Assembly: GCF_000813745.1 (NCBI RefSeq)
Contig: NZ_JWLC01000025.1
Span: 62,001-126,000, forward strand
Direction: 5' to 3'
Source: Leisingera sp. ANG-M1
GTDB taxonomy: Bacteria; Pseudomonadota; Alphaproteobacteria; Rhodobacterales; Rhodobacteraceae
Length of the DNA: 64,000 nucleotides
Below, one piece after another: positions 2,018 through 16,321 of the stretch (within the stretch, counting starts at the first letter, position 1; every line of letters begins with the position of its first letter). The translations under genes and the position numbers were made by a program. The notes beneath the pieces are model-generated. The model did no database searches and was not told the DNA's origin. It worked only from the letters and a program-made list of their open reading frames with translations.

Positions 2018-4051
2018 TCAGATGGCGATCTTGCCGCCGCCCTTGCGGGTCACGGCAACAACCGAGGGCCGGGGCGGCATGTTCGGGTCGAAATCCGGCC
2101 AGCGGGTGGCGGGGTCCTCGAAGGTCGAGGCGCGCTCAAAGCCTTTCAGCGCCTTAGTCCCGTCTGTTCCGGGGTGCTGCACCGCCAGAAACAGGGTTTC
2201 CCCGTCCGGCGTAAAAACCGGTCCGCAGAGTTCGCCGCCGGCCGGGCAGCGGAAGAACAGCTTGGAGTGGCCGCGCAGAACGCCTTCGGTCTCGACTCCG
2301 TAAAGCCCGTCCGATTTGCCGGTCTTGCCCCATTTGCTGCCCTGGTCGGTGGCGACCCACAGGCGCCCGTCCGCGTCAAAGGCGCAGTTGTCCGGCGAGG
2401 CGAACCAGCCGTTTTCCGACGTTTCCGGGTTCCACTCGGCTCCAACCCCGGCAATTTGCGGATCGCCGCATTTCACCAGGATCGACCAGGTGCCCTTCGT
2501 GGCTGCATGGTCGCCGCCGTCTTCTTTGATCTCGATGATATGGCCAAAGGCTGATTTTGCGCGCGGATTGGCTGCATCCAGCTGCGATGCGCCGCGGCGT
2601 GTGTTGTTGGTCAGCATGATATAGGCGGTGCCGTCGCCGCGCGGCTGGGCATCTTCCGGGCGGTCCATTGGAGTGGCGCCCAGGGCATCGGCCGCAAGCC
2701 GCGCGTCGATCAGAACATCCGCTTGGCTTGCAAAACCGTTTTCGGCTGTCAGCGGCCCTGTGCCATGCACCAGCGGCAGCCAGTGGACTGTGCCGCCCTC
2801 GTCGAACCGGGCCACGTACAGGGTGCCGTCGCTCAGCAACTTGGAGTTGGCGGCCGGGTCCTTTGAAACCGTGCCGGCGGAGACGTATTTGTACTGGTAT
2901 TCGAACCGCGCGTCGTCACCCATGTAGACCACCAAACGGCCTTCCTTCGAAGTGGTGGTTTCAGCACCTTCATGGCGGAAACGGCCAAGTGCGGTATGTT
3001 TCACCGGCATGGCCGCCGGATCGCGCGGGTCCACCTCGACGACCCAGCCAAAGCGGTTCAGCTCATTGGGTTCCTTGTCGATGTTGAAGCGGCCGTGGAA
3101 TTTGCCCCAGGCATACCAGAGCCCCGGTGCGCCGTAGCGTTTCATCTGCGCAGCCTCGGGCTGGTCCGACAGATCCGGCTTTCCGTCCGCATCCAGCTTG
3201 TCTGTCCAGAAATAGCCGTGGAAATTCTCTTCGGCCATCAGCCATGTGCCCCAGGGCGTCATGCCGCCGGCACAATTATTGAGCGTGCCGAGAACGCGGG
3301 TGCCCGAAGGGTCTTCGCTGGTTTGCAGCCTGGCATGGCCGGCCGCCGGACCGTCCAGGGTCATCGCGGTGGTCAGCGGTGTGATGCGCCGGTTCATAGG
3401 GCTGTTCAGGACTACGGCCCATTTGCCGTCCGCGCCGCGGATGATCTCTGCAACAGTGCCGCCATGCGCGGCCATCTCGATATCCGCCAGCTCTTTGGTC
3501 ATGCCGGCGAATTCGGCCTTGTCCTGGCGGCCCAGCCCCGGGAACATCATCTCCTCGTTGGTGTATTCGTGGTTCACGCAGAGAAGCCCGCGGGAGCCGT
3601 CGGCGTTCAGCGGCAGGAAGCCAGTGTAATCGTTGTTGTAGCCGAATTGCTGCAACTGCGCTTCGGCGCTTTGATTCATCACGTCGAATTCCGGGGCGTC
3701 CGCAACAACCGGATCGCCCCAGCGCAGCAGGATTTCCGCCTCATACCCTTCGGCCACATGATGGGTTTCATCATTTCCCCAGGCCAGTTCATTGAAGGCA
3801 TAGCGGCTTTCGCGCGCGGCGTTTGCAGCACCGGCCGGGCGCGGCGCGGCGAGGGCCGAGGCACCGAACAAAGCAGCCGAGGCGGAAACGCCGAGCAGGC
3901 CCGTCAGCATCTCCCGGCGGCCATAACGGGAGGCAATCACATCGCCAATGGAGCCGCTGAGGCGCGGGTTGGAGGGAATATCATCAAAGGCTTCAAAGGC
4001 TTCTGCCTTGTTGCCGGTTTCCGGGTCTTCAATGATCTGCTTGCGGTCCAT
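2018..4051 (-). CDS. PhoX-family (DUF839) phosphatase-like protein, Tat-exported
   Basis: 677 residues from ATG at 4051 (MDRKQIIEDPETGNK), preceded by GAG-containing sequence. An upstream in-frame start would add 37 unlikely residues. Residues about 45-75 hold a twin-arginine signal (GRREMLTGLLG, then an Ala-rich hydrophobic stretch), so the protein is exported folded. The body matches the PhoX/DUF839 family, which forms a six-bladed propeller with Ca and Fe. Recognisable segments are CVNHEYTNEE, NCAGGMTPWGTWL, EVDPRD and a C-terminal VFTPDGETLFLAVQHPG. Characterised PhoX enzymes are alkaline phosphatases of phosphate-starved cells. Relatives of this long type are common in marine bacteria, but substrate range is uncertain. 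No Pho box was located. Confidence 0.85.
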   Translation of the reverse strand: MDRKQIIEDPETGNKAEAFEAFDDIPSNPRLSGSIGDVIASRYGRREMLTGLLGVSASAALFGASALAAPRPAGAANAARESRYAFNELAWGNDETHHVAEGYEAEILLRWGDPVVADAPEFDVMNQSAEAQLQQFGYNNDYTGFLPLNADGSRGLLCVNHEYTNEEMMFPGLGRQDKAEFAGMTKELADIEMAAHGGTVAEIIRGADGKWAVVLNSPMNRRITPLTTAMTLDGPAAGHARLQTSEDPSGTRVLGTLNNCAGGMTPWGTWLMAEENFHGYFWTDKLDADGKPDLSDQPEAAQMKRYGAPGLWYAWGKFHGRFNIDKEPNELNRFGWVVEVDPRDPAAMPVKHTALGRFRHEGAETTTSKEGRLVVYMGDDARFEYQYKYVSAGTVSKDPAANSKLLSDGTLYVARFDEGGTVHWLPLVHGTGPLTAENGFASQADVLIDARLAADALGATPMDRPEDAQPRGDGTAYIMLTNNTRRGASQLDAANPRAKSAFGHIIEIKEDGGDHAATKGTWSILVKCGDPQIAGVGAEWNPETSENGWFASPDNCAFDADGRLWVATDQGSKWGKTGKSDGLYGVETEGVLRGHSKLFFRCPAGGELCGPVFTPDGETLFLAVQHPGTDGTKALKGFERASTFEDPATRWPDFDPNMPPRPSVVAVTRKGGGKIAI

Positions 4052-4194
4052 GGCTGGCTCCAAATTCTCATCAGTCTTTGCCGCAATGCGGCGGACCCGG
4101 GTCATCATGGGCAGGCTTGTAACAGATGCATAAAGGTTAATGCTGATTAACTGAATTGTCACATGAGGCGGGCTTTAGGTTCTGCCTGTTTGCA

Positions 4195-4308: not shown

Positions 4309-5367
4309 TTACTCTGCGGGCCGGAACCCTTCGATGAGCTGGCGCAGGCCGATGGCGGCGCCGGCAAAGATTGCTAGCATGGTGACTGGTGCCGAAACTG
4401 CCAGCAGGGAAAAGGCGCTGAGGCCCTGGCCGACGGTGCAGCCCATGGCGATCACCGCGCCTGCGCCCATGATGGCGGCACCGATGATCTGGCGGCGCAG
4501 CTCGCGCGGGTCCTCGCAGGCCTCCCAGCGGAAATGGCCTTTGATCAGCGAGCCGATAAAGGCGCCTGTCCAGACCCCGGCGATGGAGCCGACAGCAAAA
4601 GACAGCGGGCGCAAGGACCCGGTCATGGTCCAAAGGATGGTCTCGCCCAAGGGGGCAGAGAAGGAATGGGAGACCACCGGCAGCGCCTCGAAGCCTTCGG
4701 TGTTGACGTATGTGGTGCCGACCCAGCCCGAGGTGACGGCAATGCCCACGACGGCGGACCAGAACAGGGCTTGTTTGTCCTTGCGGATTTCCGCATTGGC
4801 GAGGGAAGCGAAGAGGATCAGTATGCCGGCAGTGACGCCTATTGCGGCCAGCGGCAGCCCGCTCCAGGCGGCGGCGTAGTGGGCCAGGCCCGGGGGGATG
4901 TCGGTGGTGACGTCCTGCTGCTCAAAGAAGATGTTTCGCAATGGGGCGAGGGGGCCTGCCAGCACCACGTAGGTTGATACCCCCATCACCAGCACGATCA
5001 CAAAGCTGCGCAGGTCGCCGCCGCCGAGCCGGGCGATGGCGCCGTACCCGCAGTTGCCGCTGAGCGCCATGCCATAGCCGAACATCAGCCCGCCGAGGAT
5101 CGAAGCGGCGGGCATCCAGCGGATCGAGAGGTAGAAGGATTGGCCGGCGTCCACCAGCCCAAGACCGATCAGAGAAAAGCTGGTTGTGACGGCCACACCG
5201 ATCGCCACACCCCACATCCGCATCCTCAGCGAAGAGCCGCCATAGAGCAGGTCTTCGATCGCGCCGAGGGTGCAGAACCGCCCAAGCCGTGCGGCCAGTC
5301 CCAGAAGAACACCGCCCAGCAGCCCGAAAAAGGCGGCTAGCTGGTGTTCTGTCAGGAGCTCAAACAT
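4309..5367 (-). CDS. soxT: SoxT, YeeE/YedE-type sulfur (thiosulfate) transporter
   Basis: 352 residues and very hydrophobic, with about nine or more membrane segments. It carries the paired Cys-containing motifs of the YeeE/YedE (DUF395) family: GMALSGNCGYGAIARLGGG and AMGCTVGQGLSAFSLLA. Characterised members (TsuA) pass thiosulfate across the inner membrane. As the last gene of the minus-strand soxS-soxR-soxT unit, 17 bases after soxR, it matches soxT of Paracoccus. It probably moves thiosulfate or a sulfur intermediate between periplasm and cytoplasm, possibly supplying the inducer seen by SoxR. That last step is inference. Confidence 0.88.
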   Translation of the reverse strand: MFELLTEHQLAAFFGLLGGVLLGLAARLGRFCTLGAIEDLLYGGSSLRMRMWGVAIGVAVTTSFSLIGLGLVDAGQSFYLSIRWMPAASILGGLMFGYGMALSGNCGYGAIARLGGGDLRSFVIVLVMGVSTYVVLAGPLAPLRNIFFEQQDVTTDIPPGLAHYAAAWSGLPLAAIGVTAGILILFASLANAEIRKDKQALFWSAVVGIAVTSGWVGTTYVNTEGFEALPVVSHSFSAPLGETILWTMTGSLRPLSFAVGSIAGVWTGAFIGSLIKGHFRWEACEDPRELRRQIIGAAIMGAGAVIAMGCTVGQGLSAFSLLAVSAPVTMLAIFAGAAIGLRQLIEGFRPAE

Positions 5368-5384
5368 TGACTTACTTCAGGTGT

Positions 5385-5723
5385 TTAGCTGCCATCGTTG
5401 CAGAACAGGTCATAGACTGTTTCCAGCATCCGGCGGGGTTTGTCGTCAGCCAGGCGGTAATAGATTGCCTTACCTTCGCGCCGGGGAATGACCAGGCCTT
5501 CGAGCCGCAGGCGGGAGAGCTGCTGGGAGACGGCGGCCTGGCGGGCCGACAGGAGCTCCTCCAGCTCGGTCACCGATTTCTCGCCCGAAACCAGGTGGCA
5601 CAGGATCATCAGGCGGCCCTCGTGGCTGATCGCCTTGAGAAAATTGGAGGCCTTGGTCGCGTTGTCGACCATCTTGTCCATTTCTGCCGGATCCATGTCC
5701 GCGGAAAACTGCGGTAGTGCCAT
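5385..5723 (-). CDS. soxR: SoxR, ArsR-family sulfur-responsive repressor
   Basis: 112 residues with an ArsR winged-helix fold. The recognition segment around residues 56-74 contains LLSARQAAVSQQLSRLRLEG, followed by the wing IPRREGKAIYYRL. Cys42 (LMILCHL) and Cys108 (DLFCND) sit where the SqrR/BigR subgroup has the two cysteines that form a polysulfide bridge in the presence of persulfide. In Paracoccus and Pseudaminobacter SoxR represses sox genes from sites in the soxS-soxV and soxW-soxX gaps. Here both gaps carry ATTC-N8-GAAT, and so do two further sox gaps. It is co-directional with soxS and soxT. Confidence 0.93.
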   Translation of the reverse strand: MALPQFSADMDPAEMDKMVDNATKASNFLKAISHEGRLMILCHLVSGEKSVTELEELLSARQAAVSQQLSRLRLEGLVIPRREGKAIYYRLADDKPRRMLETVYDLFCNDGS

Positions 5724-5782
5724 CTGTCGTCTCCTGAGCGGCGCGCGGGCGCCGCACTCCTCTTTTTGCCCCGTTCGGGCCG

Positions 5783-6166
5783 TCAGCTGCCGCCCTGAGT
5801 GTGCGTATTATCAACAAACCCTGTATGGGCCGTTAGCAAATCTGCAAGCAAAGGCCAAAAGAAATCTTCGCCCGGGTAGCCTTCGAGCCGGGCCTGTTCC
5901 TTGCCGTCCTCAACCACCAGAAAGGTGGGGGTGAACATGACCCTGCGGCTCACCTGCAGGTCATCCGGCAAATTGCGCAGGTCGACCCGGCGCAGCGGGG
6001 CGTGCTTGCCTTCGGCCGTTTTGGGGTAGATCGGGGCGATTTCCTCGTCCCAGCGGGCACACCATTCGCAGCCTGGCTGCTCGACCATTACCAGCTCGGC
6101 CGCCCAGGCGGGCAGGGCAGTGAGGGTCAGGGCCGCGGCTGCAGCCAGTTGCCGGATCACGCGCAT
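5783..6166 (-). CDS. soxS: SoxS, periplasmic thioredoxin-like protein
   Basis: 127 residues. A Sec signal peptide (MRVIRQLAAAAALTLTALPAWA) precedes a thioredoxin fold with the active motif GCEWC and the cis-proline loop FTPTFLV. In Paracoccus pantotrophus SoxS keeps the SoxY carrier cysteine reactive by reducing it, so the role is reductive activation in the periplasm. It is first gene of the minus-strand soxSRT unit, divergent from soxV, and shares the control region at 6184-6225. Confidence 0.9.
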   Translation of the reverse strand: MRVIRQLAAAAALTLTALPAWAAELVMVEQPGCEWCARWDEEIAPIYPKTAEGKHAPLRRVDLRNLPDDLQVSRRVMFTPTFLVVEDGKEQARLEGYPGEDFFWPLLADLLTAHTGFVDNTHTQGGS

Positions 6167-6183
6167 CTATGTCATTCCACCTG

Positions 6184-6211
6184 TTGACGGGTCTGCATAA
6201 TACAACATAAT
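6184..6211 (+). promoter_or_regulatory. Predicted soxV promoter
   Basis: TTGACG (6184-6189), 16 bases, CATAAT (6206-6211): a good sigma-70 match on the plus strand. The operator at 6210-6225 starts on its -10 element, as expected for simple repression. It overlaps the divergent soxS promoter. Confidence 0.55.
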
Positions 6212-6224
6212 TCGAATATGTGAA
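6197..6224 (-). promoter_or_regulatory. Predicted soxS promoter
   Basis: Reading the minus strand, a -35-like TTCACA (6224-6219) is followed by 16 bases and a -10-like TATTAT (6202-6197), placing the start about 25 bases before the soxS ATG. The ATTC-N8-GAAT site at 6210-6225 covers its -35 side. Sequence match only. Confidence 0.45.
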
Positions 6225-6225
6225 T
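6210..6225. promoter_or_regulatory. SoxR-type operator, soxS-soxV gap
   Basis: Perfect ATTC-N8-GAAT (ATTCGAATATGTGAAT), the half-site pattern reported for the SqrR persulfide regulator. It sits on both divergent predicted promoters. The soxS-soxV gap is a known SoxR target in related bacteria. Confidence 0.75.
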
Positions 6226-6272
6226 GACACAAGCCAGGGCCGGATAACGTTCGCGTGGGCCAGGGGGAGGCA

Positions 6273-7010
6273 ATGCTCGAGATTACCTTGTTTAGCGCCT
6301 TGATCGCAGGTTTGCTGAGCTTTTTCACCCCCTGCATTCTGCCGATGGTGCCGTTTTACCTCTCGTACATGGGCGGCTTGTCGATGGCGGAATTGCGCGG
6401 AGACGGTGCAATAAACGCAGGAGCACAGCGGCGGCTGCTGGTGTCGGCGGTTTGTTTTGCCGCCGGGGTGACCACAGTGTTCATGCTGATGGGCATGGGG
6501 GCGACGGCGCTGGGGCAGCTGTTCGGACAGTATCTGGAGGTTCTGTCTTATGGTGCGGCGGCGCTCTTGCTGCTGTTCGGGCTGCATTTCCTGGGCGTGG
6601 TAAAGATCCCGCTGCTGTACCGCGAGGCCCGCTTAGAAAGTGCGGCGGAACCCTCGACTGTGCTGGGCGCCTATCTGATGGGGCTGGCCTTTGGCTTTGG
6701 CTGGACACCTTGCGTGGGGCCGGCGCTGGCCTCGATCCTGATGATCGCGTCGGGCATGGGCGACATCTGGCGCGGAGGGGTGCTGCTGCTGGTCTACGGG
6801 CTGGGGATGACAGCGCCTTTTGTCGTGGCGGCGCTGTTTGCCAAACCGTTTCTGGGGTGGGTGGCGCGGCACCGCACGGCCTTTGCTTGGGTCGAAAAGG
6901 GCATGGGCGCGATGCTGGTGCTGTTTGCGGTGCTGATCGCCACCGGCGGGGTGCGGCTGATTGCCGAGGCGATGATCCGCTGGATGCCGGGGTTCAGCTC
7001 AATTGGATAA
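6273..7010 (+). CDS. soxV: SoxV, CcdA-family membrane thiol-disulfide transporter
   Basis: 245 residues from ATG at 6273, preceded by GGGGGAGG at 6263-6270. An in-frame GTG at 6255 is less likely. Six membrane segments are expected. The two redox-active cysteines are in FFTPCILPMVPF (segment 1) and FGWTPCVGPALASI (segment 4), as in CcdA/DsbD. SoxV takes electrons from cytoplasmic thioredoxin and passes them to periplasmic SoxW, and probably SoxS, for the Sox system. It starts the plus-strand sox arm and is followed closely by soxW. Confidence 0.92.
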   Translation: MLEITLFSALIAGLLSFFTPCILPMVPFYLSYMGGLSMAELRGDGAINAGAQRRLLVSAVCFAAGVTTVFMLMGMGATALGQLFGQYLEVLSYGAAALLLLFGLHFLGVVKIPLLYREARLESAAEPSTVLGAYLMGLAFGFGWTPCVGPALASILMIASGMGDIWRGGVLLLVYGLGMTAPFVVAALFAKPFLGWVARHRTAFAWVEKGMGAMLVLFAVLIATGGVRLIAEAMIRWMPGFSSIG

Positions 7011-7029
7011 ATGAAATGTGGAGGCCAAC

Positions 7030-7623
7030 ATGCTGAGAAGTCTTGCGAAAGTGTTAATGACGGCGGTGCTGGCCGTGCCCATGGCCATTCCCTTGTCTGC
7101 GGCAGAACTGGGGGATGACGGTCTGCACAAGACCTCTTGGATGCGGGAGACCTTCAAGGATCTGCGCGAGGATCTGGATGAGGCGAATGGCGAGGGCAAA
7201 CGGCTGGCGCTGATCTTTGAACAGCGTGGCTGCATCTACTGCACCAAGATGCATGAGGAGACCTTTCCCCGGCCGGAAATCAGCCGGTACATCGAAGAGA
7301 ACTTCTTTGTCGTGCAGCTGAACCTTTATGGCGATGTGGAGGTCACCGATTTCGACGGCCAAGCGCTGCCGGAGAAAGAGATGGCACGCAAATGGGGAGT
7401 GCTGTTCACACCGACGATTCTGTTCCTGCCGGAGGAGGTTGCCGAAGAAGCCACAGCCCCCGAAGCGGCGGTAGCGATGATGCCGGGCGCTTTTGGCGCG
7501 GGAACCACGCTGGACATGTTTACATGGGTCAATGAAAAGCGGTATGCGCTTGATAACGGGGAAGATTTCCAGCGCTACCACGCGCGGATGATCCAAGAGC
7601 GCAATAATGGATCCGCAGACTAG
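7030..7623 (+). CDS. soxW: SoxW, periplasmic thioredoxin
   Basis: 197 residues from ATG at 7030 with GGAGG upstream at 7020. A signal peptide (to about LSAAELG) leads into a thioredoxin-like fold with active site RGCIYCTKM and the proline loop FTPTILFLP. In the Sox system SoxW is reduced by SoxV. It lies 19 bases after soxV and is followed by a 127-base gap containing a sox operator before soxX. Confidence 0.9.
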   Translation: MLRSLAKVLMTAVLAVPMAIPLSAAELGDDGLHKTSWMRETFKDLREDLDEANGEGKRLALIFEQRGCIYCTKMHEETFPRPEISRYIEENFFVVQLNLYGDVEVTDFDGQALPEKEMARKWGVLFTPTILFLPEEVAEEATAPEAAVAMMPGAFGAGTTLDMFTWVNEKRYALDNGEDFQRYHARMIQERNNGSAD

Positions 7624-7647
7624 GGGTCCGGCGCACAAAATGCAAAA

Positions 7648-7663
7648 ATTCACAATAATGAAT
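7648..7663. promoter_or_regulatory. SoxR-type operator, soxW-soxX gap
   Basis: Perfect ATTC-N8-GAAT (ATTCACAATAATGAAT) with arms extended to AAATTC/GAATTT, about 90 bases before the soxX start. The equivalent gap ('wx') is a proven SoxR target in related species. A convincing promoter could not be fixed; a weak TTCACA-N18-CGTAAT overlaps it. Confidence 0.75.
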
Positions 7664-7750
7664 TTGTTGTTGCGTAATGGTCCGGCTGTGGCCTACGGTA
7701 TGCAGCAACGAAGCAACCGCACACAGATGCGGCAGCCATTGGGAGGATAC

Positions 7751-8227
7751 ATGAAGCTTACATCTCTGACACTGGCGCTGAGCCTGGCGGGTGCCGCGGC
7801 GATGGCCGGAGAGGTTGCTCCGAAAGCGGTGCAGTACGGCGAATACGGCGAAGTGGCCGCCTCGCTGACCGGGGTTGCCGGGGACGTGGAGAATGGCGCC
7901 GTTGTGGTCGGCTCCAAGTCCAAGGGCAACTGCGTGGCCTGCCATCAGCTGAGCGCGCTGGCGGATGTGCCGTTCCATGGCGAGATCGGCCCGTCGCTGG
8001 ACGGCGCAGGCGACCGCTGGAGCGAGGAAGAGCTGCGCGGCCTGGTGGCCAATGCCAAGATGACATTTGAGGGCACCATGATGCCGGCCTTCTACAAGGT
8101 CGACGGCTTCACCCGCCCGGGCGACGCCTATACCGGCAAGGCCGGGGCCGAGCCGCTGCCGCCGATCCTGACGGCGCAGGAGATCGAGGATGTGGTCGCG
8201 TTCCTCGCGACGCTGAAAGAAGAGTGA
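7751..8227 (+). CDS. soxX: SoxX, monoheme c-type cytochrome of the SoxXA complex
   Basis: 158 residues from ATG at 7751, with GGGAGG just upstream. Signal peptide cleavage is likely after AAAMAG. The single heme motif is Cys61-Val-Ala-Cys64-His65 (NCVACHQ), and Met111 in TMMPAF is the likely distal ligand. With SoxA it oxidatively joins thiosulfate to the SoxY carrier cysteine and passes electrons to cytochrome c. First gene of soxXYZA, expressed behind the operator at 7648. Confidence 0.95.
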   Translation: MKLTSLTLALSLAGAAAMAGEVAPKAVQYGEYGEVAASLTGVAGDVENGAVVVGSKSKGNCVACHQLSALADVPFHGEIGPSLDGAGDRWSEEELRGLVANAKMTFEGTMMPAFYKVDGFTRPGDAYTGKAGAEPLPPILTAQEIEDVVAFLATLKEE

Positions 8228-8287
8228 GGCGCGGGCCGGGCCTCGCGTCCGGTGCTGCAGCCTGTGTGAATGAATAGGAGAGATATG

Positions 8288-8704
8288 ATGGAGTTCTCAC
8301 GCCGTGAGACCCTGGCCCTGGGCCTGGGCGCTGCCGTGGTAACCGTGCTGCCGTTCCAGGTGAACGCCGCAGCAGACGACCGGATCGCTGCCTTTACCGG
8401 CGGTGCCGATATGGCCGAGGGCGGCGTCACCCTGAACGCGCCCGAGATTGCCGAGAACGGCAATACTGTTCCGATCTCGGTTGAGGCGCCTGGCGCCACC
8501 GCGATCCTGGTGCTGGCCACCGGCAACCCGGAACCCGGTGTGGCGACCTTCAACTTCGGCCCCGGTGCGGCGCAGCAGTCGGCCTCGACCCGGATCCGCC
8601 TTGCGGGCACCCAGGACGTTGTTGCGGTGGCCAAGCTGGCCGATGGCTCTTTCGCCAAGGCAAGCGCCACCGTCAAAGTGACCATCGGCGGCTGCGGCGG
8701 CTGA
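8288..8704 (+). CDS. soxY: SoxY, sulfur-carrier subunit
   Basis: 138 residues. Tandem ATGs occur at 8285 and 8288; I chose 8288 because AGGAG at 8276-8280 is then seven bases away. The N-terminus (FSRRETLALGLGAA) is a Tat signal. The C-terminus ends in the invariant GGCGG tail, whose cysteine carries the sulfur intermediate between SoxXA, SoxB and SoxCD. It pairs with SoxZ encoded 44 bases downstream, which usually travels through Tat bound to SoxY. Confidence 0.96.
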   Translation: MEFSRRETLALGLGAAVVTVLPFQVNAAADDRIAAFTGGADMAEGGVTLNAPEIAENGNTVPISVEAPGATAILVLATGNPEPGVATFNFGPGAAQQSASTRIRLAGTQDVVAVAKLADGSFAKASATVKVTIGGCGG

Positions 8705-8748
8705 GGCTGCCTGCTCCCTGAACGGAATTCTTAAGGAGAATTAAAGAC

Positions 8749-9078
8749 ATGGCATCCGGTGTTAAACCCCGCGTCAAGGTCCCGAAAACCGCTGCTGCCG
8801 GCGATACGGTCACCATCAAGACCCTGATCAGCCACAAGATGGAAAGCGGCCAGCGCAAGGATAAGGAAGGCAACCTGATCCCGCGCTCGATCATCAACCG
8901 CTTCACCTGCGCCTTCAACGGCGAGACCGTGCTGGACGTGGCGATGGAGCCCGCGATCTCCACCAACCCCTATTTCGAGTTCGACGCTGTCGTGCCGGAA
9001 GCCGGTGAATTTGTCTTCACCTGGTATGACGACGACGGCTCGGTCTACGACACCAAGAAAAAAATCGCCATCGGCTGA
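8749..9078 (+). CDS. soxZ: SoxZ, partner of the SoxY sulfur carrier
   Basis: 109 residues from ATG at 8749, behind AAGGAGAA. There is no signal peptide, which is normal: SoxZ is exported as a complex with Tat-targeted SoxY. An Ig-like beta sandwich is expected, with motifs TLISHKMESGQR and FNGETVL and the C-terminal FVFTWYDDDGSVYDTKK. It docks SoxYZ onto SoxXA, SoxB and SoxCD. Confidence 0.95.
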   Translation: MASGVKPRVKVPKTAAAGDTVTIKTLISHKMESGQRKDKEGNLIPRSIINRFTCAFNGETVLDVAMEPAISTNPYFEFDAVVPEAGEFVFTWYDDDGSVYDTKKKIAIG

Positions 9079-9153
9079 TCCGTTCCGGATCTTTAGGCAC
9101 GCGTTCTGTCCGGTTTGCGCCGGGCAGAGCAGGCACCCAAGGGAGGACAGGGA

Positions 9154-10005
9154 ATGAACAAGAAGGCAATCACAGCAATTGCCGCCGTGCTGGCGCTGCC
9201 TATGGCAGCAGGTGCAGGCCCCGATGACGACACGCTGGTGGTCAACGAGGAAATCGAGATGGTCACCAAGGCCGCCGCACCTGCGCATATCGCGGATGTG
9301 ATGGACGAGGTGATGTCGGGCTGGCACTTCCGCAAGGATGAAACCCAGGCCCTGCAGATGGACGACTTTGAAAACCCGGCGATGATCTTTGTCGATCAGG
9401 CCCTGGATGCTTGGAGCACTGTCGAAGGCTCCGAGGGCAAGTCCTGCGCTTCCTGCCACGATGATGTCGAGGAAAGCATGAAAGGCGTGCGCGCGGTCTA
9501 TCCTAAATGGAGCGAGGCCGCCGGTGAAGTCCGCACCCTGAACATGCAGATCAACGACTGCCGCGAAAACCACATGGGTGCCGAGAAGTGGAAGTACACA
9601 GGCGGCAAGATGTCGGCGATGGAAGCGCTGATCTCGGTCCAGTCGCGCGGTATGCCGGTGGATGTGGCCATCGACGGCCCGGCCCAGTCGACCTGGGAGA
9701 AGGGCAAGGAGATGTATTACACCCGCACCGGCCAGCTGGAGCTGTCTTGTGCGAACTGCCATGAAGACAACTATGGCAACATGATCCGCGCCGACCACCT
9801 GAGCCAGGGCCAGATCAACGGCTTCCCGGTCTACCGCTTGAAGAACACCAAGCTGAATACCGCCCATGCGCGCTTCAAGGGCTGCGTGCGCGACACCCGC
9901 GCCGAGACCTACAAGCCGGGTTCGGCGGACTTCGTGGCGCTGGAGCTCTATGTGGCCTCGCGCGGCAACGGGCTGTCGGTCGAAGCACCCTCTGTCCGCA
10001 ACTGA
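9154..10005 (+). CDS. soxA: SoxA, diheme c-type cytochrome of the SoxXA complex
   Basis: 283 residues from ATG at 9154 with GGGAGGACAGGG upstream. A Sec signal peptide is followed by two heme motifs: Cys98-x-x-Cys101-His102 (SCASCHDD) and Cys199-x-x-Cys202-His203 (SCANCHED). The active-site cysteine, which becomes the persulfide heme ligand, is Cys244 in FKGCVRDTRAE. This is therefore the two-heme type, as in Paracoccus. It is the last gene of soxXYZA, since a strong hairpin follows at 10012-10041. Confidence 0.95.
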   Translation: MNKKAITAIAAVLALPMAAGAGPDDDTLVVNEEIEMVTKAAAPAHIADVMDEVMSGWHFRKDETQALQMDDFENPAMIFVDQALDAWSTVEGSEGKSCASCHDDVEESMKGVRAVYPKWSEAAGEVRTLNMQINDCRENHMGAEKWKYTGGKMSAMEALISVQSRGMPVDVAIDGPAQSTWEKGKEMYYTRTGQLELSCANCHEDNYGNMIRADHLSQGQINGFPVYRLKNTKLNTAHARFKGCVRDTRAETYKPGSADFVALELYVASRGNGLSVEAPSVRN

Positions 10006-10011
10006 TCTTTG

Positions 10012-10050
10012 CGCCCCGCGCCTGTTGACAGGCGCGGGGCGTGTCTCTTT
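10012..10050 (+). terminator. Strong hairpin after soxA, probable terminator
   Basis: A perfect 13-bp GC stem (CGCCCCGCGCCTG, loop TTGA, mirrored arm ending at 10041) followed by TGTCTCTTT. It separates soxXYZA from soxB. Because soxB has its own operator right after it, soxB is probably transcribed at least partly on its own. Confidence 0.65.
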
Positions 10051-10056
10051 TGAAAC

Positions 10057-10072
10057 ATTCATTTGTGCGAAT
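10057..10072. promoter_or_regulatory. SoxR-type operator, soxA-soxB gap
   Basis: Perfect ATTC-N8-GAAT (ATTCATTTGTGCGAAT), lying between a possible -35 TTGAAA (10050-10055) and -10 TATGTC (10072-10077). It is 33 bases before the soxB start and directly after the terminator-like hairpin. I know of no report of SoxR acting in this gap. Confidence 0.65.
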
Positions 10073-10104
10073 ATGTCGCGCAAGCACACAGGATACCGGT
10101 ACAC

Positions 10105-11802
10105 ATGATCTCGCGCCGCGATTTTCTGCAGGTTTCCATGGCCGCCTCGGCCATGGTGGGGGCGTCAGGCTTTGGCAACTGGGCGCGGCTGGCTGCGCAG
10201 CAGTCGCTGACCCAGGACCAGCTTCTGGAGTTTGACACCTTCGGCAACATCAGCCTGATCCATGTGACTGATATTCATGGGCAATTGAAGCCGATCTATT
10301 TCCGCGAGCCGTCGATCAATCTGGGTGTCGGCGGCAACAAGGGCCATGTGCCGCATATCACCGGCGCCGACTTCCGCAAGGCTTATGGCATCGCTGACGG
10401 CAGCCCTTCGGCCTATGCGCTGACCTATGATGACTTCTCGTCGCTCGCCAAGGGCTATGGCCGCGTCGGCGGGCTGGACCGGATGGCAACGATCATCAAC
10501 GCCATCCGCGCCGACCGCCCCGATGCGCTGCTGTTTGACGGCGGCGACACCTGGCACGGCTCCTACACCTGCCATCACACGGCAGGCCAGGACATGGTCA
10601 ATGTGATGAACGCGCTGAAACCGGATGCGATGACCTTCCACTGGGAGTTCACTCTGGGCTCTGAGCGGGTCAATGAGATCGTCGAGGGCCTGCCTTTTGC
10701 GGCGCTTGGCCAGAACATCTTTGACGCCGAGTGGGACGAGCCGGCCGAACTGTTCAAACCCTACAAGTTCTTCGAACGCGGCGGTGCCAAGGTGGCGGTA
10801 ATCGGCCAGGCCTTCCCCTATATGCCGATTGCCAACCCGGGCTGGATGTTCCCGGAGTATTCGTTCGGTATCCGCGATGAGAACATGCAGGCGATGGTGG
10901 ATGAGGTGCGCGCGGCCGGCGCAGATCTGCTGGTGGTGCTCAGCCACAACGGCTTTGACGTCGACAAGAAGATGGCCGGCAAGGTGCAGGGGATTGACGT
11001 GATCCTGTCGGGCCACACCCATGACGCGCTGCCCGAGCCGGTCCTGGTGGGCAAAACCCATATCATTGCTTCTGGGTCTAATGGCAAATTTGTCTCCCGT
11101 GTTGATTTGGATGTGCGCGACGGCCAGCTGATGGGGCTGCGGCACAAGCTGATCCCGGTGTTCTCGGATGTGATCGCGCCGGACCCGGCAGTGGCGCAGC
11201 TGATTGATGCGGAGCGCGCGCCCTTTAAGGCGCAGCTGGAGGAGGTGATCGGCCAGACCGATACGCTGCTCTACCGCCGCGGCAACTTCAACGGCACCTG
11301 GGACGACCTGATCTGCGATGCGCTGCTGAGCGAGCGGGAGGCGGATATTGCCATGTCGCCGGGCGTGCGCTGGGGACCGTCGCTGGTGCCGGGCGACAAT
11401 ATCACCCGCGAGGATATCTGGAACGTGACCTCGATGTCTTACGGGCAGGCCTACCGGTCGGAGATGACCGGCGAGTTCATCAAAGTGATCCTTGAGGATG
11501 TAGCCGACAACATCTTCAACCCGGACCCCTATTACCAGCAGGGCGGCGACATGGTGCGGATCGGCGGCATGGGTTACCGGATCGACATCACCAAGCCGCA
11601 AGGCGAGCGGATCACCGATATGACGCTTCTGAAGACCGGCGAGGCGATCGATCCGGCGAAATCCTACGTCGTGGCCGGCTGGGCCAGCGTGAACGAGGGC
11701 ACCGAAGGGCCGATGATCTGGGATGTGGTCGAGGATCATATCCGCAAGCTTGGCACCGTGACCCTGAACCCGAACACTTCCGTGCAGGTGGCAGGCGCTT
11801 AA
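10105..11802 (+). CDS. soxB: SoxB, thiosulfohydrolase (dimanganese)
   Basis: 565 residues from ATG at 10105. The N-terminus is a Tat signal (SRRDFLQVSMAASAMVG). The metallophosphoesterase-type domain has its metal ligands in VTDIHGQLKP, FDGGDTWHGS, VLSHNGFDVD and LSGHTHDALPEP. The SoxB-specific FHWEFTLG segment is present, and a 5'-nucleotidase-like C-terminal domain follows. The enzyme hydrolyses the terminal sulfonate from SoxY-bound intermediates and releases sulfate. It has its own upstream operator and is flanked by hairpins on both sides. Confidence 0.96.
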   Translation: MISRRDFLQVSMAASAMVGASGFGNWARLAAQQSLTQDQLLEFDTFGNISLIHVTDIHGQLKPIYFREPSINLGVGGNKGHVPHITGADFRKAYGIADGSPSAYALTYDDFSSLAKGYGRVGGLDRMATIINAIRADRPDALLFDGGDTWHGSYTCHHTAGQDMVNVMNALKPDAMTFHWEFTLGSERVNEIVEGLPFAALGQNIFDAEWDEPAELFKPYKFFERGGAKVAVIGQAFPYMPIANPGWMFPEYSFGIRDENMQAMVDEVRAAGADLLVVLSHNGFDVDKKMAGKVQGIDVILSGHTHDALPEPVLVGKTHIIASGSNGKFVSRVDLDVRDGQLMGLRHKLIPVFSDVIAPDPAVAQLIDAERAPFKAQLEEVIGQTDTLLYRRGNFNGTWDDLICDALLSEREADIAMSPGVRWGPSLVPGDNITREDIWNVTSMSYGQAYRSEMTGEFIKVILEDVADNIFNPDPYYQQGGDMVRIGGMGYRIDITKPQGERITDMTLLKTGEAIDPAKSYVVAGWASVNEGTEGPMIWDVVEDHIRKLGTVTLNPNTSVQVAGA

Positions 11803-11833
11803 GCGGCGCCCGCCCCGGCGGGGCAGGACAATC

Positions 11834-11849
11834 TTCCCCTGACGGGGAA
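11834..11849 (+). terminator. Weak hairpin after soxB
   Basis: TTCCCC-TGAC-GGGGAA six-bp stem, followed after CCGTA by an A/T run (AAAAAATTTT). A second small GC hairpin precedes it near 11812-11824. Possible partial terminator between soxB and soxC. Confidence 0.4.
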
Positions 11850-11873
11850 CCGTAAAAAATTTTGCTCAGTTGA

Positions 11874-11889
11874 ATTCACGAAAGTGAAT
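11874..11889. promoter_or_regulatory. SoxR-type operator, soxB-soxC gap
   Basis: Perfect ATTC-N8-GAAT (ATTCACGAAAGTGAAT), extended to a 7-bp inverted repeat AATTCAC-GAAA-GTGAATT. It is 26 bases before the soxC start and just upstream of its AGGAGG. The surrounding sequence is AT-rich, fitting a promoter, though the exact -35/-10 pair is unclear. Confidence 0.65.
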
Positions 11890-11915
11890 TTATCGATATA
11901 AGGAGGCAAAGAAAG

Positions 11916-13187
11916 ATGAGTGATGACGCCAAGAGCCTGGCGCCCTCGCGCCGCCAGTTCCTGACCGGAGCGGCGGCTGCCGGGGCAGGGGCTGTTGCCG
12001 CCGGTGCCGCTAAGGCGGCCACGCCCGATCCGCTGATTACAGAAGTGCAGGAATGGGCCTCAGGCCTCGGCGAGGGTGTGGATGCCACGCCTTACGGCAT
12101 GCCGATCCAATACGAGGGCGACGTGGTGCGCCGCAACGTGGAGTGGCTGACGGCGGACACCATCAGCTCGATCAACTTCACCCCGATCCACGCGCTGGAC
12201 GGCACAATCACGCCGCAGGGCTGTGCCTTTGAGCGCCACCATTCGGGCGCCATCGAGCTGCGCAAGGAAGACTACCGGCTGATGATAAACGGGCTGGTCG
12301 AGACGCCGCTGGTGTTCACCTATGAAGACCTGGAGCGCTTCCCGCGCGAAAACCGCGTTTATTTCTGCGAATGCGCCGCGAACTCAGGCATGGAATGGGC
12401 CGGTGCGCAGCTGAACGGCGCGCAGTTCACCCATGGAATGATCCACAATATGGAATACTCCGGCGTGTCGCTGCGGACGCTGCTGGAAGAGGCCGGCGTC
12501 AGCCCCGAGGGCAAGTGGGTCTATGTGGAGGGTGCGGATGCGTCTTCGAACGGGCGCTCGATCCCGCTGGAAAAGGCGATGGACGACGTGCTGGTCGCCT
12601 TCAAGGCCAACGGCGAGGCGCTGCGCAAGGAGCATGGCTATCCGGTGCGGCTGGTGGTGCCGGGCTGGGAAGGCAACATGTGGGTCAAATGGCTGCGCCG
12701 GGTTGAGGTCATGGACCAGCCGGTTGAAAGCCGCGAGGAGACTTCGAAATATACCGACACGCTGGCCAACGGCGTCAGTCGCAAGTGGACCTGGGAGATG
12801 GATGCGAAATCCGTTGTCACCAGCCCCAGCCCGCAGGCGCCGATCAAACATGGGCCGGGGCCGCTGGTGATCACCGGGCTGGCCTGGTCGGGGCGTGGTG
12901 CGGTTACCGGCGTGGATGTCTCGCTGGACGGTGGCAAGAGCTGGCAGGAGGCGCGGCTGGCCGCGCCTGGCACTGACAAGGCGCTGACGCGGTTCTACCT
13001 GGACATCAATTGGGACGGTTCCGAGATGCTGCTGCAAGCCCGTGCCAAGGATTCCACCGGTTACGTCCAGCCTTCCAAGGCGCAGCTGCGCGAGGTGCGC
13101 GGCTTGAATTCGATCTATCACAACAACGCCATCCAGACCTGGTGGGTCAAGGCTAACGGGGAGGCGGAAAATGTCGAAGTATCTTAA
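11916..13187 (+). CDS. soxC: SoxC, molybdenum-cofactor sulfane dehydrogenase subunit
   Basis: 423 residues from ATG at 11916 with AGGAGG at 11901. A Tat signal (SRRQFLTGAAAAG) fits cofactor insertion before export. The sulfite-oxidase-type Moco domain includes YFCECAANSG with Cys151/Cys153, the latter the likely Mo ligand. The dimerisation domain covers about residues 290-400. With SoxD it oxidises the SoxY-bound sulfane sulfur (a six-electron step), so this organism should oxidise thiosulfate fully to sulfate without sulfur globules. It overlaps soxD by 17 bases. Confidence 0.95.
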   Translation: MSDDAKSLAPSRRQFLTGAAAAGAGAVAAGAAKAATPDPLITEVQEWASGLGEGVDATPYGMPIQYEGDVVRRNVEWLTADTISSINFTPIHALDGTITPQGCAFERHHSGAIELRKEDYRLMINGLVETPLVFTYEDLERFPRENRVYFCECAANSGMEWAGAQLNGAQFTHGMIHNMEYSGVSLRTLLEEAGVSPEGKWVYVEGADASSNGRSIPLEKAMDDVLVAFKANGEALRKEHGYPVRLVVPGWEGNMWVKWLRRVEVMDQPVESREETSKYTDTLANGVSRKWTWEMDAKSVVTSPSPQAPIKHGPGPLVITGLAWSGRGAVTGVDVSLDGGKSWQEARLAAPGTDKALTRFYLDINWDGSEMLLQARAKDSTGYVQPSKAQLREVRGLNSIYHNNAIQTWWVKANGEAENVEVS

Positions 13188-14304
13188 TGGGGTGAAAATG
13201 GGCGTTGAGGGCAGCTCCCGTCCGCGGGCGGAAAGCGTAGCGCCCGCCCGGGGGGGCGGACGGGCGCTGCCCGGCCTTTCGGCCGGGCGGTACGTTGTTG
13301 CAGCTGCTATTTTTTCTTTGGCAGTTGTTTCACCGGCGGCTGCAGAGAAGTTCGGCCTGGGCCGTCCTGCACTGCCGGAGGAAATTGCCGCCTGGGATCT
13401 GGATGTGGCCCCCGATGGCACCGGCCTGCCCGCAGGCTCGGGCGATGTGTTCACCGGCGAAGAGGTCTTTGCCGAGAAATGCGCCGTTTGCCACGGCGAC
13501 TTTGCCGAAGGTGTCGGCAATTGGCCCAAGCTCGCGGGCGGGCAGGACACGCTGGACCATGACGATCCGCTGAAGACAGTGGGCAGCTACTGGCCGTATC
13601 TCTCGACCACCTGGGACTATGTGAACCGCTCGATGCCGTTTGGCGATGCGCAGTCTCTGACCGCGGACGAGGTTTATGCTATTGTGGCTTATATCCTCTA
13701 TTCCAACGATCTGGTGGATGACGAGTTCGTATTGTCGGACGGGACTTTTGCAGATGTGGAGCTGCCCAATGCGGAAGGCTTCATCCTGGATGACCGGCTG
13801 GAGGCGGAGAAGCACTTCTGGAACCCGGAGCCGTGCATGGAGAACTGCAAGGACGACGTCGAGATCACCATGCGCGCCATGGTGCTGGACGTGACGCCGG
13901 AGGAAGAGAGCGCCGCGGCTTCGGGTGATGCCGCGCCGGTTGAGGAGGCGGAGGAGCCTGTCGAAGTGGCAGCTGTTCTAGACCCGGAACTGGTGGCGAA
14001 AGGTGAGAAGACCTTTAAGAAGTGCAAGGCCTGCCACCAGGTCGGCGACGGGGCCAAGTCCAAGACCGGGCCCATCCTGAACGGCATCATCGGAGCGCCT
14101 GCCGGCTACGTGGAGGGGTTCCGTTACTCCAAGGCGATGAAGGCTGCGGCCGAAGGCGGGCTGGTCTGGGATGAGGCCGAACTGGCGGCCTTTCTGGCGA
14201 AACCGAAGAAATACATGAAGGGGACCAAGATGTCCTTTGCAGGACTGAAGAAGGAAGGGGACATCGAGGCGGTGATTGCCTACCTCAAGTCCTATTCCCA
14301 GTAA
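13171..14304 (+). CDS. soxD: SoxD, diheme c-type cytochrome, with unusual N-terminal insert
   Basis: 377 residues. ATG at 13171 lies inside the end of soxC and has GGGGAGGCGG upstream. Heme motifs are Cys104-x-x-Cys107-His108 (KCAVCHGD) and Cys285-x-x-Cys288-His289 (KCKACHQ). SoxD takes electrons from SoxC and passes them to cytochrome c. The hydrophobic signal core does not begin until about residue 41 (YVVAAAIFSLAVVSPAAA). Before it are about 30 Arg/Gly/Pro/Ser-rich residues encoded by a strongly palindromic GC block (13217-13287). That suggests an in-frame repeat insertion just before the signal sequence. Export then needs either the long N-region to be tolerated or an internal start. Confidence 0.93.
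   Translation: MSKYLNGVKMGVEGSSRPRAESVAPARGGGRALPGLSAGRYVVAAAIFSLAVVSPAAAEKFGLGRPALPEEIAAWDLDVAPDGTGLPAGSGDVFTGEEVFAEKCAVCHGDFAEGVGNWPKLAGGQDTLDHDDPLKTVGSYWPYLSTTWDYVNRSMPFGDAQSLTADEVYAIVAYILYSNDLVDDEFVLSDGTFADVELPNAEGFILDDRLEAEKHFWNPEPCMENCKDDVEITMRAMVLDVTPEEESAAASGDAAPVEEAEEPVEVAAVLDPELVAKGEKTFKKCKACHQVGDGAKSKTGPILNGIIGAPAGYVEGFRYSKAMKAAAEGGLVWDEAELAAFLAKPKKYMKGTKMSFAGLKKEGDIEAVIAYLKSYSQ
13217..13287. repeat. Palindromic GC-rich block inside soxD 5' end
   Basis: An outer inverted repeat CCCGTCCG (13217-13224) / CGGACGGG (13257-13264) encloses inner CGGGCG/CGCCCG arms. It is followed by a perfect hairpin CCCGGCC-TTTC-GGCCGGG (13270-13287). The reading frame stays open across it. It looks like a REP-type element inserted in frame. 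Confidence 0.6.
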
Positions 14305-14305
14305 C

Positions 14306-15019
14306 ATGCAGCGCCGTCTGGCGTTGGTTATCCCGGTCTGGGCTGCGCTGGCAGGCGCGGCCCAGGCCAGCGAGGGCGCCGTGCCGATCGGCGATCCAGA
14401 GCGGGGCGAAAACGTGTTTGAGCAATGCGCGTCCTGCCATGAGGTCGGGCCAGGGGCCCGCCACAAGAACGGGCCGCTGCTGAACGGGGTTTTCGGCCGC
14501 AAGGTGGCGCAGTTCGAGGATTTCAAGTATTCCAATAGCATCGTGCGTGCCCGCAAGGACGGGATGGTCTGGGACTTGGAGCATCTGGACGCCTATCTGG
14601 AAAACCCTAAGGCGCTGGTGAGCGGCACGCGGATGGCCTTCCGCGGCCTCAAGGAACCGCAGGACCGCCGGGATGTGCTGGCATACTTGCGCCGGTTCTC
14701 GGACAACCCGCAGGACATACCGGAGGCCGAGCCGACTGTGCGCAAGGTTGAAGTGGCGCTGCCGCCTGAGACGCTCGCCATTGTGGGGGACCGGGACTAT
14801 GGCGAGTATCTCTCAAGCGAATGCACCACCTGCCACCAGACCGACGGGGATTATGATGGCATCCCTTCGGTCATCGGCTGGCCGAATGAGGACTTTGTCA
14901 TCGCCATGCACGCCTACAAACGCAAGATCCGGCCCCATCCGGTGATGCAGATGATGGCGGGGCGGTTGTCGGACGAGGAGATCGCAGCACTGGCCGCGTA
15001 TTTTGGTGCGCTGGAGTGA
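14306..15019 (+). CDS. soxE: SoxE, diheme c-type cytochrome
   Basis: 237 residues from ATG at 14306, one base after the soxD stop, so translationally coupled. A short signal peptide ends near AAQA. Heme motifs are Cys41-x-x-Cys44-His45 (CASCHEVG) and Cys173-x-x-Cys176-His177 (CTTCHQTD). The first domain resembles class I cytochrome c, and the second the small heme partner of flavocytochrome c sulfide dehydrogenase. In Paracoccus SoxE associates with the flavoprotein SoxF encoded next. Confidence 0.9.
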   Translation: MQRRLALVIPVWAALAGAAQASEGAVPIGDPERGENVFEQCASCHEVGPGARHKNGPLLNGVFGRKVAQFEDFKYSNSIVRARKDGMVWDLEHLDAYLENPKALVSGTRMAFRGLKEPQDRRDVLAYLRRFSDNPQDIPEAEPTVRKVEVALPPETLAIVGDRDYGEYLSSECTTCHQTDGDYDGIPSVIGWPNEDFVIAMHAYKRKIRPHPVMQMMAGRLSDEEIAALAAYFGALE

Positions 15020-15058
15020 TCTCCGGCGCTTTGTTGTTTTGAAAGGGAGGGTAGTAAA

Positions 15059-16321
15059 ATGGCTGTAGACAGACGTAAGTTTCTTGGCACCGGAGCGGCT
15101 GCGGCGGCGGCCTTGCAGGCGCCGGCGGTTCTGGGCGCGGGCAAGCCGCGTGTCGTGGTTGTCGGCGGCGGTGCAGGCGGTGCGACTGCGGCGCGTTATA
15201 TTGCCAAGGACAGCAAGGGCGCGATTGACGTCACCCTGGTGGAGCCGACCCGGACCTACTACACCTGCTTCTTCTCCAATCTGTATATCGGCGGTTTTCA
15301 GGACCTGGCGGGCATTGCCCACAGCTATGGCACTTTGGCCAGCCAGTACGGCGTCAATGTGGTGCATGACTGGGCGGTGGGGATCGACCGGGATGCAAGG
15401 ACCGTCAGCCTGGCGGGCGGCGGGATGCTGCCCTACGACCGGCTGATCCTGTCGCCGGGGATAGATTTTGTCGACGGCGCGGTGGAGGGCTGGGACATCA
15501 CTTCCCAGAACAAGATGCCGCATGCCTATAAGGCGGGCTCGCAGTCGGAACTTTTGAAAGCGCAGATCGAGGCGATGCCGGAAGGCGGCACCTTTGCGAT
15601 GGTTGCTCCACCCAACCCCTACCGCTGCCCGCCGGGACCTTATGAGCGGGTGTCGATGGTGGCGCATGTGCTGAAGCAGCGGAACCCCACGGCCAAGATC
15701 ATTGTTGCCGACCCCAAGCCGAAGTTCTCCAAGATGGCGCTGTTCCAGGAGGGCTGGGGCAGCCATTACGACGGCATGATCGACTGGATCGGCGAGGAGT
15801 TCGGCGGCGGCAATGTCTCGGTGGACCCGGATGCGATGACGGTGACCATTGACGGCGAAGTGACCAAGGTGGATGCCTGCAACGTGATCCCGGCGATGAA
15901 GGCGGGGCGGATCTGCGAGATGGCCGGCATCACCGAGGGCAACTGGGCGCCGGTCAGCGGCCACACGATGCAGAGCCGGCTGGATGAGAATATCCATGTG
16001 CTGGGCGATGCCTGCGCGCAGGGCGACATGCCGAAATCCGGCTTCTCGGCCAATTCCCAGGCCAAGGTGGCGGCGATGGCGGTGCGCGGGGCATTGACTG
16101 ACAGCAAAGTGTTCCCGGCGAAATTCTCCAACACCTGCTGGTCGCTGATCGGCACCAATGACGGTGTGAAGGTGGGGGCGACCTATCAGGCGACGGATGA
16201 GAAGATTGCCAAGGTGGACGGGTTCATCAGCCAGACCGGCGAAGACGCTGAGCTGCGCCAGGCGACTTATGAGGAAAGCATCGGCTGGTATGCCGGGATT
16301 ACCTCCGACATGTTCGGCTGA
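15059..16321 (+). CDS. soxF: SoxF, FAD subunit of flavocytochrome c sulfide dehydrogenase type
   Basis: 420 residues from ATG at 15059, behind GGGAGG. The N-terminus has a Tat-like signal (DRRKFLGTGAAAAAAL), then the dinucleotide-binding motif VVVVGGGAGGATAARYIA. Conserved cysteines in YYTCFFSNLY and FSNTCWSLI fit the redox disulfide of this family. SoxF oxidises sulfide in vitro and, with SoxE, forms a flavocytochrome. In Paracoccus it speeds thiosulfate oxidation but is not essential. It is the last gene of the sox cluster. Confidence 0.93.
   Translation: MAVDRRKFLGTGAAAAAALQAPAVLGAGKPRVVVVGGGAGGATAARYIAKDSKGAIDVTLVEPTRTYYTCFFSNLYIGGFQDLAGIAHSYGTLASQYGVNVVHDWAVGIDRDARTVSLAGGGMLPYDRLILSPGIDFVDGAVEGWDITSQNKMPHAYKAGSQSELLKAQIEAMPEGGTFAMVAPPNPYRCPPGPYERVSMVAHVLKQRNPTAKIIVADPKPKFSKMALFQEGWGSHYDGMIDWIGEEFGGGNVSVDPDAMTVTIDGEVTKVDACNVIPAMKAGRICEMAGITEGNWAPVSGHTMQSRLDENIHVLGDACAQGDMPKSGFSANSQAKVAAMAVRGALTDSKVFPAKFSNTCWSLIGTNDGVKVGATYQATDEKIAKVDGFISQTGEDAELRQATYEESIGWYAGITSDMFG

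Follow-up and report, generated by a model that had tools for sequence, protein, structure and literature searches.

Candidate SoxR-type operators within the sox cluster of Leisingera sp. ANG-M1 and their conservation in related bacteria

Sox genes are commonly regarded as forming a single operon. In the stretch of Leisingera sp. ANG-M1 analyzed here (contig NZ_JWLC01000025.1, positions 62,001 to 126,000; 64,000 nucleotides (nt), hereafter the window), four gaps between sox genes each contain an exact copy of the dyad ATTC-N8-GAAT, which raises the question of whether the cluster is transcribed as one unit or switched as several by SoxR, the ArsR-type repressor encoded within it. A sequence-only reading had proposed that two of these copies are extra operators, giving soxB and soxC sulfur-responsive promoters of their own. 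We consider it likely that SoxR represses soxSRT/soxVW, soxXYZA, soxB and soxC from separate operators, with soxB forming its own unit and soxC receiving an added promoter.

Four dyad sites in the window

The four sites, named after the flanking genes, lie in intergenic gaps preceding gene starts, exactly where they were first read. No strand is assigned, and scores are from a cross-species matrix:

6210-6225: putative operator S/V, ATTCGAATATGTGAAT; 27.1 bits
7648-7663: putative operator W/X, ATTCACAATAATGAAT; exact in 76 of 78 gaps; 30.3 bits
10057-10072: putative operator A/B, ATTCATTTGTGCGAAT; soxB start 32 nt downstream; 24.2 bits
11874-11889: putative operator B/C, ATTCACGAAAGTGAAT; soxC start 26 nt downstream; 25.4 bits

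These sites are real and not chance matches. Dinucleotide shuffles of the whole window contained a mean of 0.70 exact matches and none of 100 reached the five that the window holds. The sequence-only reading had found no match beyond the four, and here it was mistaken. The fifth, at 3674-3689, was rejected as an operator and judged a product of chance: it lies within an open reading frame (2018-4162, minus strand), its 10.7 bits fall under the mean shuffle maximum of 13.4, and it is missing from the closest relative (L016), although the L016 stretch covers that region. The matrix is symmetric and was trained on 161 W/X, A/B and B/C sites from other species, excluding the window and loci L016, L017 and L048, and containing no S/V class. 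Over the 64-kb window its top four hits are the four sox sites (30.3, 27.1, 25.4 and 24.2 bits) and the next best scores 11.8; the maxima of 40 shuffles have a mean of 13.4 and a highest value of 19.4. The S/V site attains its 27.1 bits despite the lack of S/V sites in the training set.

Throughout the organism's own 5.37-Mb genome, the exact motif is found at 37 places (including the five in the window), compared with 3 for a reversed-pattern control. This density, about one match per 145 kb, would place about 0.04 in 5.7 kb. With 37 places in the genome, the motif alone is too common to prove function, and conservation must decide.

Conservation of the sites and a possible composite element before soxB

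Relatives are represented by the best 80 of 578, each a SoxB locus taken together with its flanks; their gaps were measured by tblastn, and gap counts add the window. Per-gap site counts (denominators of 75 to 81) include L016, a near-copy of the window, together with L017 and L048. The last of these, with the same gap sequences as L047, was left out of shuffles and of hairpin, alignment, matrix and dyad counts, L016 out of alignments, promoter-pair search, dyad analysis and matrix training, and L017 out of matrix training.

The exact site is present in 76 of 78 W/X gaps. In the A/B gap it is exact in 26/81 and present with at most one mismatch in 63/81, often as ATTC-N8-GCAT; in the B/C gap the corresponding counts are 24/75 and 31/75. 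Two of the B/C hits, the exact one of L083 and the one-mismatch hit of L080, run into the start of soxC and probably arose by chance, so 23/75 is the safer exact count. The S/V gap is weaker (exact in 4/80; 26/80 with at most one mismatch), and the X/Y, Y/Z and Z/A gaps have no exact site in any of 81 loci each and 3, 0 and 0 sites, respectively, with one mismatch. Shuffled gaps yield 0.04-0.28 exact matches per gap class. When one mismatch is allowed, they yield 5.2 against 63/80 observed for A/B, 3.9 against 31/75 for B/C, and 6.7 against 26/79 for S/V. On these counts, the W/X, A/B and B/C sites are conserved as classes at the same place in relatives. The B/C site (at most one mismatch) tracks gap length, occurring in 27/34 gaps of at least 75 nt, 2/12 of 45-75 nt and 2/29 below 45 nt, a pattern that suggests gain or loss of the element as a whole.

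A survey of 295 genomes from 294 genera of the family searched for ATTC-N8-GMAT, 14-44 nt and the soxB start in succession. A soxB start signature was detected in 125/295 genomes and the operator pattern directly before the soxB start in 85/295; all 85 are among the 125 (listings compared by eye), and the reversed-pattern control gave 0. The A/B and B/C sites are thus not the local extras that the sequence-only reading took them for, since A/B recurs across the family and B/C is exact in about a third of the gaps compared (24/75). Its interpretation, partly supported here, was right in kind and understated in breadth, and its mechanism remains a matter of inference.

The A/B site is preceded by a further feature:

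10010-10051, plus strand: terminator-like hairpin after soxA; 15-pair stem with 12 GC pairs, then TCTCTTTT

The region 10006-10056 folds at -33 kcal/mol, and the hairpin has the form of an intrinsic terminator, a GC-rich stem followed by a T run, making it a predicted terminator. By a home-made score, terminator-like hairpins were called in 61/80 A/B gaps versus 4/880 coding stretches. In 62 aligned A/B gaps, the three columns after the stem (-17 to -15) hold T in 49, 52 and 57 gaps, as is typical of intrinsic terminators. The A/B operator, usually just after such a hairpin, recurs in many genera, which suggests that related bacteria probably switch soxB separately. In the B/C gap, a terminator-like hairpin was called in 6/75 loci overall and none in the window, so the B/C site is more likely to provide an additional promoter than to set soxC apart. 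Of the two private promoters originally proposed, the one for soxB fits the hairpin-operator layout of a separate unit, and the one for soxC is better read as an addition.

The A/B element also differs in its internal symmetry. A second dyad (ACACATGCGCATGTGT type) is centred 4 base pairs (bp) to the right of the ATTC dyad, and each has a mean complementarity of 0.62, with controls at 0.17-0.34. At W/X (0.72 vs 0.38) and B/C (0.70 vs 0.34), complementarity favors the ATTC dyad over the second. Complementarity is no higher than the alignment columns predict, which indicates symmetry and not covariation. By eye, six A/B gaps (L028, L030, L035, L037, L040, L078) retain the second dyad without the ATTC dyad, and the window's own site has an exact ATTC dyad and only half of the second. 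Either SoxR may use two registers at A/B or another factor may join it. As a tentative extension, about which we are somewhat doubtful, the sox cluster may consist of separately switched units across the family, with a conserved terminator-operator module placing soxB under a sulfur switch of its own. The element before soxB would then combine two dyads 4 bp apart, and through a second register of SoxR, or through another regulator, the thiosulfohydrolase would respond at a threshold different from that of the carrier and dehydrogenase.

SoxR, the proposed circuit and its rivals

The genes flanking the four sites are as follows:

4309-5367, minus strand: soxT-like YeeE/YedE transporter gene adjoining soxR; named by synteny with L118, and presumably soxT
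5385-5723, minus strand: soxR, ArsR-type repressor with Cys42 and Cys108; PDB sequence matches and cysteine positions
5783-6166, minus strand: soxS, syntenic with the L118 gene; no NCBIfam match in a profile search
6255-7010, plus strand: soxV, CcdA family; synteny with L118, NCBIfam matches below cut-off
7018-7623, plus strand: soxW, thioredoxin family; synteny with L118, NCBIfam matches below cut-off
7751-8227, plus strand: soxX, NCBIfam TIGR04485 above cut-off
8285-8704, plus strand: soxY, TIGR04488 above cut-off
8749-9078, plus strand: soxZ, TIGR04490 above cut-off
9154-10005, plus strand: soxA, TIGR04484 above cut-off
10105-11802, plus strand: soxB, start MISRRDFLQ; TIGR04486, 832 bits
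11916-13187, plus strand: soxC, TIGR04555 above cut-off
13171-14304, plus strand: soxD-like cytochrome gene overlapping the soxC end; synteny, present in all but three of 80 loci, and presumably soxD

The order T-R-S is shared by most relatives, and the SoxB protein is 99% identical to that of Leisingera sp. ANG-Vp. SoxR belongs to the ArsR/SmtB family (NF033788, 81.3 bits; cut-off 55). Its best PDB sequence matches are the ArsR-family chains 6o8k-6o8o (E 2e-36), which we take to be Rhodobacter capsulatus SqrR, and it has in common with them the segment RQAAVSQQL, presumably the recognition helix. Cys42 and Cys108 are 66 residues apart, the same spacing as Cys50 and Cys116 in Hyphomicrobium denitrificans SoxR. 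Against the BigR equivalog NF040642 the protein scores 98.2 bits, below the curated cut-off of 155; it is BigR-like and was not filed as BigR.

One paper on these regulators quotes ATTC-N8-GAAT as the deduced recognition site of SqrR in R. capsulatus (PMC9774250), and by this dyad the identification of the four sites as SqrR/SoxR-type operators is supported. The SqrR operator and the YgaV site of E. coli have the core dyad and spacing of the Leisingera sites, and both proteins belong, like SoxR, to an ArsR subfamily with two sensor cysteines. At ygaV the start site is 28 bp upstream of the start codon and YgaV binds near it (PMC9774250), a position relative to the start codon like that of the A/B and B/C sites. 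The targets named for SqrR and YgaV in that text are other genes, whereas Leisingera has several copies splitting one sox cluster. In H. denitrificans, SoxR is a sulfane-sulfur-responsive repressor that bound 4 of 5 tested probes from its sulfur-oxidation region. With the region between soxXA and soxYZB it produced two shifted bands, and its binding to that region is lost with polysulfide. The gene order differs, soxXA and soxYZB being divergent, and that paper does not contain the word consensus and so offers no operator motif to compare. The sequence-only reading counted the S/V and W/X gaps among known SoxR targets in related bacteria; two later research papers say no more than that SoxR proteins, among them those of Paracoccus pantotrophus, Paracoccus denitrificans and Pseudaminobacter salicylatoxidans, bind promoter-operator segments of sox clusters, and in these bacteria too soxR adjoins a complete cluster. 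In Roseobacter M382, thiosulfate is reported to induce every sox gene, soxC more than 14-fold, and the strain is listed among three with differing sox gene order. In the open literature searched, a scope that did not extend to the two founding SoxR papers, no SoxR operator is described at soxA/soxB or soxB/soxC. The four sites would make up a regulon of SoxR type in which the sox cluster is divided into units that are switched separately.

In the proposed circuit, the four sites would be operators of SoxR acting as a sulfane-sulfur sensor. Without reduced sulfur, SoxR dimers would occupy all four and block transcription; persulfide or polysulfide would link Cys42 to Cys108, causing SoxR to release the DNA, and the cluster would then behave as several co-induced units. 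The soxS-soxR(-soxT) and soxVW genes would be transcribed from a divergent S/V promoter and soxXYZA from W/X as far as the hairpin after soxA. Directly 3' of that hairpin soxB would have its own promoter, and soxCD would be served by an added B/C promoter together with read-through from soxB. The sequence itself shows the sites, their conservation across species, the hairpin and the sensor cysteines; SoxR as the binder is inferred, as are the promoters, where transcription begins and any influence on dosage. Promoter-like sequences are found near the first two operators:

6184-6211, plus strand: promoter-like TTGACG-16-CATAAT for soxVW, overlapping the S/V operator (consensus match only)
6197-6224, minus strand: promoter-like TTCACA-16-TATTAT for soxSR, overlapping the S/V operator (consensus match only)
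7670-7699, plus strand: conserved promoter-like TTGCGT-18-TACGGT just 3' of the W/X operator (75 aligned loci)

The proposed A/B and B/C promoters are placed by position and hairpin. Ahead of the B/C operator in the window (11854-11863) and, by eye, in L017, L020, L021, L051, L053 and L054 stands a run of A and then one of T, perhaps a promoter element of the UP type. The B/C palindrome, which has a GAAA loop in the window, was also considered as an RNA hairpin; this role was dropped, as most relatives do not keep the loop.

Several observations weigh against this circuit. Neither the A/B nor the B/C gap showed a conserved -35/-10 pair, or one with 16-18 nt spacing that rose above threshold, and a general consensus scan of 5300-15200 gave no clear excess of promoter-like (3 vs 2.1 in shuffles) or terminator-like (9 vs 7.8) elements. 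The right half of the A/B site is often GCAT, its second overlapping dyad is kept as well as the ATTC dyad, and 17 of 79 A/B gaps (L016 and L048 dropped) have no site with at most one mismatch. Three Paracoccus loci (L116, L117, L123) have no such site in A/B, B/C or W/X. A paralogue of SoxR with 52% identity, encoded in the same genome (C23:37176), may bind the sites too, and YgaV is reported to bind one promoter without ATTC-N8-GAAT (PMC9774250).

That the matches are mere coincidences in the AT-richer gaps of a GC-rich genome is very improbable. There are 37 matches in the genome, and the one at 3674 shows that chance hits occur, but the cross-species matrix, the gap-by-gap shuffles and the 85-genome survey all speak against it; conservation argues against chance for W/X, A/B and B/C as classes, while a single site could individually be chance. 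The A/B and B/C sites could instead be real regulatory elements bound mainly by the second SqrR/BigR-like protein of this genome or, at A/B, by a regulator of the overlapping dyad. The paralogue, with cysteines 61 and 127 also 66 apart, is a candidate, the second A/B dyad is as symmetric as the first and in some gaps stands by itself (by eye), and the pmpAB-like genes described below have two ATTC-type sites with different inner letters, a pattern suggestive of a sister regulator with a related motif of its own. We nonetheless regard this as unlikely, given that the window's A/B site is exact for the ATTC dyad and holds half of the other (by eye), that the W/X, B/C and soxH-like sites have the inner letters of the sox class by matrix score, and that soxR sits within the cluster and the paralogue elsewhere.

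A similarly low probability attaches to the hairpin after soxA being an mRNA-stabilizing or processing element, with soxB expressed by read-through and the A/B and B/C sites acting as SoxR roadblocks or tuning a single long transcript. The lack of a convincing -35/-10 pair at either site, the mixed T tract after the window's stem (TCTCTTTT) and the 19 of 80 A/B gaps without a terminator call would suit it. The T-rich columns after the stem in the 62 aligned gaps are, however, typical of intrinsic terminators, and a new unit would be expected to begin in this way, with a conserved operator directly after a stop signal.

If soxB and soxC do have SoxR-controlled promoters of their own in much of this large group of marine sulfur oxidizers, operator strength could determine how much carrier, hydrolase and sulfur dehydrogenase are made relative to one another, providing a simple, testable model of pathway tuning in facultative sulfur oxidizers. 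The matrix also allows SoxR targets to be predicted outside the cluster, such as a soxH-like gene.

Sites elsewhere in the genome and variant loci

The matrix was run over the window, over 3 kb around each of the 32 exact places elsewhere in the genome and over a few longer stretches; neighboring genes were checked by family search at nine places (L001, L006, L007, L008, L009, L010, L012, L100, L103). The best-scoring place outside the window, C6:211771 (L010, 1501-1516; 26.3 bits), is followed after 30 nt by a gene for a metallohydrolase that matches SoxH-related NCBIfam families best (136 bits, below the cut-off of 280). All 9 close genus loci, this genome's among them, retain the site; two homologues that are more distant have none at that position. 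Two half-size transporter genes of YeeE/YedE type (L124, G000:C6:97300-106300, at 2833-3978), which we take to be pmpAB-like, are preceded by sites at 4001 and 4059. Two ATTC-N8-GAAT-type sites 58 bp apart occur in 8/8 genus loci (own included), and their inner letters, unlike those of the sox class, suggest a sister regulator, for which the paralogue at C23:37176 is one candidate. The sites at L009 (11.5 bits) and L103 (7.1 bits) have perfect but different inner dyads and were not accepted as SoxR sites. The L100 site (21.2 bits) overlaps the start of an ABC-transporter gene, and an exact match at L001 1501-1516 (G000:C3:162253; 16 bits) lies 41 nt before another metallo-beta-lactamase-fold gene, downstream of a LysR-type regulator gene.

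The Paracoccus loci L116, L117 and L123 differ from the window in having no A/B or B/C site; their S/V gaps keep one or two sites with at most one mismatch and, by eye, a hairpin still follows soxA. In L116 and L117, SoxR has no cysteine at the C-terminal sensor position (LFETD and LFGTD; tblastn-aligned part only), so that sensing may differ. Sites with at most one mismatch were likewise not found in the A/B, B/C or W/X gaps of Rhodobacter CZR27 (L118) and Ciceribacter (L119), nor in A/B or B/C of a fourth Paracoccus (L120). Methylosinus (L121) and Indioceanicola (L122) have different gene orders with no A/B gap. Records titled Nocardioides marinus, Flavobacteriia and Enemella evansiae (L017, L048, L078) carry Roseobacter-type sox clusters and are possibly mislabelled or contaminated assemblies. 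Unlike that of L016, the sox cluster of Leisingera sp. JC1 (L040) resembles Ruegeria loci, with a soxB 86% identical to that of the window and an A/B gap like those of L028, L030, L035 and L037; transfer of this cluster is possible.

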